This document shows positions 42,480 through 44,723 of a DNA stretch of 55,516 nucleotides, piece by piece. This stretch comes from an uncultured Actinomycetes bacterium (GTDB taxonomy: Bacteria; Actinomycetota; Acidimicrobiia; Acidimicrobiales; Ilumatobacteraceae). Where the stretch lies: contig CAIQJP010000030.1 in assembly GCA_903872155.1 (NCBI GenBank), positions 1 through 55,516 of the forward strand, given 5' to 3'. The stretch's first letter is position 1; each line of letters begins with the position of its first letter. The notes below the pieces were generated by a model. That model was given only the letters and a program-made list of their open reading frames with translations. It had not been told where the DNA came from and made no database searches. Position numbers and translations under genes: made by a program.

Positions 42480-44081
42480 GTGACGGTCTACGCCCCAGAG
42501 GAGTTCACCGCCGAGGAGTCGGAAGTTTTACGACGCTATTTCACCAATTTGGACGGTCCAGTATTCGCCCTGGTGAACTTGCCCGAGGTGGTTAAAGGTG
42601 CTTTATTTGCGCGGTACAGCCGCACCCACAAAAGTCTTCGTCGACTCTTTTTGGACGAGTTTGTTGGCGAATTAGATATTGCAGGCGATCAAGGCGTTGA
42701 TGCAACGATCGGCCTTGAGCGAGCTGAAGAGTTGTACGAGAAAGTTTTCTTTGAATACGGGGACGACTCAGTTGCTCAACTTGGTGGCGTGCACCTGGCT
42801 TGTGAACAGGCTTCCAACGTACTGACCAAGATTCTTGAATGGGGCCGACTCGCGAGTTATCTCGAACAAAGCACGCGCTATATCGCCTATGACGCGCGAC
42901 TTGCTGGGCGGTATCGGTTCTATCGTGACCCCGATGTCTTGAACTCGCGTTTCGGAACGCGGTATGTAGGAGATATGGATCGTATGTTCGATTCGTACTC
43001 GCAATTGATTGAAAAAGTGACCGAGCATGTTCGGTCAAGTATTAAACGTGATCCTGCGGACAGCGATTTCGTCTTCCGTATGGCAACTCGTGCGAAAGCG
43101 TTAGATGCTGTTCGTGGAGTTTTGCCGGCGGCTTCGTTGTCAAATGTCGGTATATACGGCAGCGGACAGTCGTATGAAGCGATGTTGATTCGTATGCGTG
43201 CGCATCCGTTACCGGAGGCTCGTCATTACGCCGATTTAATGTTGGAAGAACTCCGCAAAGTGATTCCGAGCTTCTTGAAGCGCGTTGATCTTGCTGATCG
43301 CGGTGGCCGTTGGAGTGATTACTTAGCGGACACTCGTGAATCGACCAGCGAACTTGTTCAAGGCCTCTTCGCCGAGACACCTGTTGACCACAGTCCTCCG
43401 GTGGTGTTGACAGATTTTGATCCAGAGGGTGAAGATAAATTAATCGGTGCGATTTGTTATTCGCATACCAGCTTGCCTGAGACCCAAATCATGCAACGTG
43501 TGCAACGCATGAGCCATGCCGAAAAGGTCGCGATTTTGAAGGCATATATTGGAGATCGCGAAAATCGTCGACACCGTCCGGGGCGAGCTTTCGAACGTAC
43601 TGACTACCGCTTTGACGTTTTGTCGGATTATGGCGCTTTCCGAGATATGCAGCGGCACCGTATTTTGACCATCGAATGGCAACCGTTGACCCCGAATCAT
43701 GGGTACACCCGTCCCGATCTCATTGATGAGGCTGGGCAGACCGTCGCCTTTGATGAGGTTATGAGCCGCTCAGCTGGCCTCTTTGACGCCATGAAGCCAG
43801 ATTTCCCTCAGCAAGCCTCGTACGCCGTTTCAATGGCCTATCGGGTGCGCTACGTCATGCAGTTCAACGCCCGAGAAGCCATGCACATGCTCGAATTGCG
43901 CTCGTCGCCCCAAGGTCACCCGGCCTATCGCCGAGTTGCCCTCGAGATGCACCGCTTAATTGGCGAACAAGCGGGGCATAAAGCGATTGCCGAAGCGATG
44001 ACGCACTTGACAGTTGAGGCCCCCGAACTCGAACGTTTGGCAGCTGAACGTCGCGCTGAATCCCGTCGTGGGGGTCAATAA
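42480..44081 (+). CDS. Tandem ThyX-like protein (flavin-dependent thymidylate synthase family), double length
   Basis: A 533-residue protein with two halves that each resemble ThyX (usual length 220-260). The N half has GRLASYLEQSTRYI at 122-135, the second part of the ThyX motif, but lacks RHR. The C half has RHR at 392-394 followed by ILTIEWQPLTPNHGY, without the Ser-x-Asn-Glu-x-Ser-x-Arg part. Each half also has the following ThyX-like helix region (residues 212-258 and 447-495). ThyX is a tetramer with shared active sites, so the halves could combine to make one site. Activity as a thymidylate synthase is not shown. Confidence 0.75.
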   Translation: MTVYAPEEFTAEESEVLRRYFTNLDGPVFALVNLPEVVKGALFARYSRTHKSLRRLFLDEFVGELDIAGDQGVDATIGLERAEELYEKVFFEYGDDSVAQLGGVHLACEQASNVLTKILEWGRLASYLEQSTRYIAYDARLAGRYRFYRDPDVLNSRFGTRYVGDMDRMFDSYSQLIEKVTEHVRSSIKRDPADSDFVFRMATRAKALDAVRGVLPAASLSNVGIYGSGQSYEAMLIRMRAHPLPEARHYADLMLEELRKVIPSFLKRVDLADRGGRWSDYLADTRESTSELVQGLFAETPVDHSPPVVLTDFDPEGEDKLIGAICYSHTSLPETQIMQRVQRMSHAEKVAILKAYIGDRENRRHRPGRAFERTDYRFDVLSDYGAFRDMQRHRILTIEWQPLTPNHGYTRPDLIDEAGQTVAFDEVMSRSAGLFDAMKPDFPQQASYAVSMAYRVRYVMQFNAREAMHMLELRSSPQGHPAYRRVALEMHRLIGEQAGHKAIAEAMTHLTVEAPELERLAAERRAESRRGGQ

Positions 44082-44210
44082 GTACATCGTGATGGAACTT
44101 CGTGACCAGTGTCACCTAAGTATCCAACAGTTGGAGACCAAAGCGTGTCTATTATCCGCGCTCACACCTTTGTTTTTGGTGGGCAAACTTCAGGAGTAAC
44201 AGGAAATCTC

Positions 44211-44723
44211 ATGGCAAAAGATGACGACAATTTGGACCCAGAACTTGATGAGGAGTTCCTTGAGGAAGAGGAAGCCATTGACGAGGCCGACCCCGATGAG
44301 TTACTCGATGACGACGAACTTGAAGATGAGGAAGATCTTGGTGTTGAGGACCTAGACACGGTTTTGGCTGGCGAGGATCCCGAGGCCGAGATTGTTCCTT
44401 TGGTCGCCAAAAAGAAGGCCAAGAAGTCGAAAAAAGACGTCGCTGAGGATGAAGAAGAAGACGACGATGATGAACTCATCGGAGAAGATGACATCGAAGA
44501 AGACCTCGGCGTCATCTTGGCAGCCCGTGTCAAAGGTCGTAGCGAAGACGACGAAGAAGATCCCGAAGAGGAAGAAGAAGACCTTCAGTTGTCGAATGAT
44601 CCCGAAAGCGGGATTCAACCGAAGCGTCCCGATGAGCGCATGTGCACGCAGTGTTTCTTGCTCGTCCGCAAAGGCGCCCCCATGTGTCCAGTGGGCGACG
44701 ACACCTGTCCGCTTTTTGCCTAA
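44211..44723 (+). CDS. Highly acidic protein with C-terminal zinc knuckle (DUF4193-like)
   Basis: A 170-residue protein with two very acidic stretches split by a short basic block (AKKKAKKSKKD near residues 64-74) and a C-terminal Cys-rich end (ERMCTQCFLLV and CPVGDDTCPLF). The end resembles the zinc-binding tail of actinobacterial DUF4193-type proteins. The ATG at 44211 is chosen over the open frame back to 44109 because AGGAAATCTC precedes it. The low-complexity acidic region should be unstructured. No function is assigned. Confidence 0.75.
   Translation: MAKDDDNLDPELDEEFLEEEEAIDEADPDELLDDDELEDEEDLGVEDLDTVLAGEDPEAEIVPLVAKKKAKKSKKDVAEDEEEDDDDELIGEDDIEEDLGVILAARVKGRSEDDEEDPEEEEEDLQLSNDPESGIQPKRPDERMCTQCFLLVRKGAPMCPVGDDTCPLFA

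Follow-up and report, generated by a model that had tools for sequence, protein, structure and literature searches.

A tandem ThyX protein from an actinobacterium with the ThyX signature motif divided between its two halves

We describe a gene from an uncultured actinobacterium of the family Ilumatobacteraceae whose product joins two ThyX domains, each of which retains the part of the ThyX signature motif that the other lacks. The gene lies in a stretch of 55,516 nucleotides, hereafter the window (contig CAIQJP010000030.1 of GenBank assembly GCA_903872155.1), where it occupies positions 42480-44081 of the forward strand. The same complementary split was present in all of the 108 tandem proteins aligned, that of the window included. 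We put at roughly 80% the probability that this open reading frame (ORF) encodes a flavin-dependent thymidylate synthase in which a single active site is shared out between two fused, diverged ThyX domains. The window genome most likely relies on it for thymidylate synthase activity, provided by a dimer with two composite sites.

Two Thy1 domains and a divided motif

The gene starts with GTG within an open frame of 535 codons and encodes 533 amino acids. Thy1 (PF02511) was the sole Pfam family in the ORF, scoring 117.3 bits over two stretches, which places the protein in this family and gives the chain the two Thy1 domains that characterise a domain-duplicated ThyX. The halves were also scored separately, with the chain cut between residues 280 and 281. 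The N-half domain (residues 80-264; 42717-43271, forward strand) then obtained 62.7 bits and the C-half domain (43437-43967, same strand) 58.5 bits, against a cut-off of 24.8; because each half passes alone, the tandem arrangement is not a chance match. BLASTP detected no real similarity between the N half and the C half (best E 8.1), while global hhalign comparison with 20 single-domain ThyX proteins gave 99.0% for the N half and 99.4% for the C half, so that the two halves are linked to each other through the ThyX profile. An earlier note on this DNA had read the ORF as a ThyX-like tandem, and this reading holds: both halves lie above the Pfam Thy1 cut-off, and the outcome named there as refuting it, halves that fail to align to ThyX in a profile search, occurred neither with Pfam Thy1 nor with hhalign. 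The NCBIfam thyX equivalog model (TIGR02170) scored the whole ORF at 43.5 bits, below its cut-off of 87.9, and the N and C halves at 24.3 and 26.1 bits; one single-domain ThyX scored 163.5.

Residue equivalences were assigned with single-domain ThyX as a ruler, using T. maritima (Tm) numbering anchored on RHR = 78-80. All features that follow lie on the forward strand. The dUMP-side half of the motif, S126-Y-L-E129-Q-S131-T-R133-Y134 (Tm S83...E86, S88, R90, Y91; 42855-42881), is found in the N half, where the RHR position reads W121-G122-R123. By alignment, the FAD-side half, R392-H393-R394 (Tm R78-H79-R80; 43653-43661), lies in the C half. It is followed there by ILTIEWQPLTPNHGY and no Ser-x-Arg-Tyr occurs; Pro stands at the E86 position and Thr at S88, with R90 and Y91 unaligned. 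A second RHR string, residues 364-366 (43569-43577), falls outside the ThyX motif position. Further along, the alignment places R212-G-V-L215-P216 (Tm R147...P151; 43113-43127) in the N half and R474 (Tm R174, M. tuberculosis (Mtb) R199; 43899-43901) in the C half, and equates S97 of the N half (42768-42770) with the FAD-phosphate position of Tm Thr55 and Mtb Ser71. Equivalents of RHR, Arg174 and Ser88/Arg90/Tyr91 (R392-H393-R394, R474, S131, R133 and Y134) are all present in the chain, and in neither domain does the motif run contiguously from RHR to S.R(Y/F). This is the distribution that the earlier note had described, namely an N half with SxxxQSTR-like residues (here SYLEQSTRY) and no RHR, a C half with RHR and no Ser part, and the helix region after the motif kept in each half, as RGVLP in the N half and AREAMHMLELR in the C half.

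The 108 tandem proteins comprise the window protein, its relatives at 80 loci, 19 of 20 stretches fetched from genomes of the class, and eight plasmid or phage records. In every one of them the equivalents of R78, H79 and R80 read RHR in the C half, and the N half holds equivalents of E129, S131, R133 and Y134, of R212, L215 and P216, and a Ser at the S97 position. The R474 equivalent in the C half is Arg in all 107 rows that have a residue at this place (one row is cut short), and at the Tm R147 position of the C half Arg is not among the commonest residues. A strict pattern for the joined motif, which is narrow and misses four true single-domain proteins, matched 0/108 tandem proteins versus 16/20 single-domain ThyX. 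The split also occurs in six of six relatives from viral contigs, whose identity to the window protein is 21-52% and in which the ten key residues are all conserved; the split persists down to about 21-22% identity.

This conservation bears on whether just one half might do the work of a ThyX, with the other carried along as a degenerate, structural or regulatory passenger. Enzymes have often evolved fused inactive copies, motif residues have been lost from each half, and the N half mostly still has Arg at the Tm R80 and R174 positions (103/108 and 104/108, respectively; Arg at R78 in 13/108). However, neither half has a complete motif and the piece missing from one is invariant in the other; moreover the two halves are similarly constrained, with mean core identities to the 80 relatives of 83% and 75%. 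Given that RHR is intact in 0/108 N halves and that the C half has no counterpart of Ser-x-Arg-Tyr, we rejected the passenger explanation, which we regard as quite improbable.

A predicted composite active site

According to a review of ThyX structures that describes the Mtb enzyme, each ThyX active site is made by three subunits and the four sites are equal. Subunit A provides RHR, which touches FAD, and its first Arg together with Arg199 touches dUMP; subunit C provides Arg87, Ser105, Arg107, the lid Tyr108 and the backbone of Gln103; the third subunit provides Ser71 and Arg190 (PMC6514825). The premise of the earlier note, that ThyX active sites sit between the subunits of a tetramer, agrees with this description. 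Motif counting equates Mtb Ser105, Arg107, Tyr108 and Gln103 with Tm S88, R90, Y91 and E86, and alignment equates Ser71 and Arg190 with Tm Thr55 and Arg165. S88A, R90A and Y91A substitutions in Tm ThyX strongly slowed one catalytic step (PMC8316439).

In the tandem protein the RHR/R199 group falls in the C half and the equivalents of Ser105, Arg107, Tyr108 and Gln103 fall in the N half. The split runs along an existing subunit boundary, since solved ThyX draws RHR and the dUMP-holding Ser-x-Arg-Tyr from separate subunits; with one group in each half, a complete site would require an N half paired with a C half. The C half would supply the FAD side, with R392-H393-R394 and R474, and the N half the dUMP side and its tyrosine lid, with E129, S131, R133 and Y134. 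Two chains, bringing together four ThyX domains, would adopt the usual ThyX tetramer shape, so that the dimer would be a pseudo-tetramer in which two composite sites are complete and two others dead. The chemistry would be that of ThyX, in which the methylene of CH2-THF passes via FAD to C5 of dUMP, yielding dTMP and THF. We infer FAD and dUMP binding, activity, dimeric assembly and two sites per dimer, and the composite pocket itself from the tandem sequence read against the solved homotetramers.

The earlier note had suggested that one chain could supply complementary pieces as a built-in heterodimer. The sequences support this for RHR in the C half and E.S.RY in the N half, which are so placed in 108/108 proteins and come from different subunits in solved ThyX, but other residues of the site sort less cleanly. 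The equivalent of Mtb R87, a subunit-C contact to dUMP, is Asn113 in the window protein; N halves have Asn here in 102/108 and Arg in 3/108 cases, and Arg is found in 14/20 single ThyX. Equivalents of E58 and N163 are kept in the C half (103/108 each) and of E182 in the N half (107/108). Of the third-subunit residues, S/T55 is in the N half in 108/108 proteins, and R165 is in the C half in 102/108 and in the N half in four; since these point different ways, they do not assign the third-subunit role to either domain. His53, present in 20/20 single ThyX, is replaced in the window protein by Asp95 (N half) and Pro367 (C half), and tandem N halves have Asp at this position in 103/108 and His in 5/108 cases. 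H53D and H53A variants of Tm ThyX have been crystallised with ligands, according to the titles of the structure entries.

An AlphaFold2 model built with 67 close sequences had a mean pLDDT of 65.4, with residues 1-83 and 88-145 below 50. A model built with 42 sequences, six viral-contig relatives having been added, reached a mean pLDDT of 74.8 and a pTM of 0.63. In this improved model most of the N-half motif region (residues 98-142) still had pLDDT below 50, and the fold of the N half therefore rests on sequence profiles. The C-half model (residues 304 to about 518) matched solved ThyX-fold entries with Z of 12.5-16.5 and rmsd of 2.4-3.5 over 170-196 residues, and the top 47 entries were all ThyX or PolB. 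Structural comparison of both models confined the ThyX matches to the C half (304 to about 519), which does not imply that the N-half fold differs. Against PDB sequences, phmmer returned two chance-level matches only and the family profile returned none at E up to 1.

A tree was computed from 23 N halves and 23 C halves (taken from 23 of the 108 tandem rows) together with 20 single ThyX. The N halves formed one group (100/99). For the C halves two changes are needed, and they came together in 60% of 200 bootstrap trees, since the three from Paenibacillus/Bacillus were placed with the single ThyX by a branch 3.76 changes per column long. A long-branch warning applies to this tree. The shared split makes a single origin of the fusion likely, although the tree itself does not show it. 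A more far-reaching proposal is that tandem ThyX forms a widespread, obligately asymmetric class, in which a homo-oligomer was fused and its site irreversibly partitioned, and in which the two pseudo-sites per dimer may have become regulatory, binding a nucleotide or folate; we offer this tentatively and think it rather unlikely.

Thymidylate synthesis and distribution

The window genome is a draft assembly of 165 contigs that is 97% complete. Profile searches of it found one Thy1 protein and no Pfam match to ThyA, so that the check proposed in the earlier note, for another thyA or thyX, turned up neither a ThyA nor a second Thy1 protein. SHMT is present, and Pfam DHFR_1, the only DHFR type searched, had no match. 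ThyX returns THF and not DHF, so no DHFR is needed to recycle DHF, and the lack of a DHFR_1 match agrees with this chemistry. A thymidine kinase gene is also present, and salvage is therefore possible.

Among 149 sampled genomes of the class, Thy1 was found in 136, ThyA in 16, both in three and neither in none; all 13 genomes without Thy1 have ThyA. Fisher's test of this near-exclusion gave p = 3e-16, a value that is overstated since the genomes are related. At least two Thy1 matches were found in 126/149 genomes, and eight genomes, all from the same genus, lack ThyA and have a single-domain ThyX. Two Thy1 matches per genome were counted as tandem; 19 of 20 class stretches contained one long frame matching the query, a few of them cut by the end of the stretch or contig; the twentieth was a guessed place. 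At the level of the phylum, at least two Thy1 matches were found in 93/296 genomes, with two non-tandem ones removed. Outside the class, 59 genomes of the phylum sample have at least two Thy1 matches, and a ThyA-family match, a piece of 74 positions, was found in one of these. The genus g163 contains both states: ThyA was absent from two sampled genomes that have two Thy1 matches, while a third has ThyA and no Thy1. One class genome (G009:C39:1968-3886) has, besides two Thy1 matches, a ThyA broken into two parts separated by about 1 kb.

The earlier note had also considered a flavoprotein with another activity. Such a protein might methylate UMP/dUMP as PolB does, or be an atypical ThyX that is not essential, as in Corynebacterium glutamicum. 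The solved folds matched include those of PolB and of the atypical C. glutamicum ThyX, Asp has taken the place of His53, and the thymidine kinase gene points in the same direction. Against this, neither ThyA nor another Thy1 protein was matched in the window genome, every class genome without Thy1 has ThyA, and a ThyA-family match accompanies Thy1 in only 3/136; ThyA is rare beside tandem ThyX. Nor do the scanned neighbours show an evident biosynthetic cluster: seven of nine neighbouring window ORFs have a Pfam match (helicase, M20 peptidase, GNAT enzyme, enoyl-CoA hydratase and the like), and no polyoxin-type gene cluster was evident among the nine. We thus give another role very little credence and favour a thymidylate synthase. 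The product of the downstream neighbour (44109-44723), a very acidic protein of 204 aa, has four Cys close to the C terminus and matched no Pfam family at E 0.001.

A search of one genome per species returned 426 relatives, of which the best 80 were retained. Among these best 80 of 426, 79 lie on contigs titled actinobacteria and one on a contig titled Acidobacteria, and all have the same single long frame at 73-98% identity. Three records titled Bifidobacterium breve (L003, L004, L033) carry genes 76-98% identical to the window gene, and their titles look mislabelled. Plasmid matches comprised ten records (Euzebya, Parabacteroides, Miltoncostaea, Paenibacillus, Bacillus) and phage matches five; 11 of the 15 carry the annotation thymidylate synthase and the remaining four, Vibrio phage proteins, the annotation hypothetical. 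Eight of the 15 records were compared, including Tunturiibacter phage Tunturi_5 and Vibrio phage vB_VmeM-Yong MS32, and both halves and the split were found in 8/8. An assembly artefact, in which a sequencing error had joined two adjacent ThyX genes, might be considered in a draft of 165 contigs, but the recurrence of the same single frame at the 80 loci and in the eight plasmid and phage records refutes it, and we attach practically no probability to it.

In Vibrio phage vB_VmeM-Yong MS32 the 461 aa "hypothetical" protein at 236867-238252 is likewise a tandem ThyX, split in the same way. Viral contigs scanned with the window, Tunturi_5 and Vibrio phage proteins yielded no relative. A viral structure library contains phage ThyX of one- and two-domain lengths, including that of Microcystis phage LMM01 (491 aa). 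The Bacillus and Paenibacillus plasmids with tandem ThyX are roughly 200 kb in size, and relatives occur on contigs classed as viral; these plasmids may be phage-plasmids. In the two Paenibacillus cases the tandem ThyX adjoins DUF1257/DUF2997 genes. In an actinobacterial genome of 7.8 Mb, an intein-like insert interrupts a single-domain ThyX gene (G393:C1:3664200-3666200) just after RHRVGW.

Relation to known ThyX enzymes

In summary, we see tandem ThyX not as a new activity but as a form of a known enzyme, widespread and under-described; by sequence, the family profile picks up no relative with a solved structure. If our reading is correct, much of the class examined (126/149 genomes with at least two Thy1 matches) depends on tandem ThyX, and the protein would illustrate clearly how equal subunits can come to divide their labour during evolution. 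ThyX is pursued as an antimicrobial target. A fused form with part of the site in each domain would allow the contribution of each subunit to be tested singly, which a homotetramer does not.

The ThyX of Chlamydia trachomatis is probably about 530 aa long and so possibly tandem. It has been isolated and assayed (PMC3498832), and if it is tandem then activity of the tandem form has already been shown. In the openly licensed literature (CC0, CC BY, CC BY-SA), as far as its available passages extend, no description of a motif partition between ThyX halves was found, which is weak evidence of absence. A domain-duplicated ThyX of Chloroflexi was noted in 2009 as uncharacterised (PMC3224940); the passage that mentions it contains no motif analysis.

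Three Paenibacillus/Bacillus and two phage tandem ThyX are 22-25% identical to the window protein and differ from it in having His at the Tm H53 position; in four of these five the R165 equivalent lies in the N half. The closest established systems are the single-domain ThyX enzymes, or FDTS, such as TM0449 of T. maritima and ThyX of M. tuberculosis, which the tandem protein resembles in its Thy1 domains, its C-half fold, RHR, Ser-x-Arg-Tyr and R174. Whereas these enzymes have one contiguous motif and four equal subunits, in the tandem protein two diverged domains share the motif and His53 has given way to Asp95.
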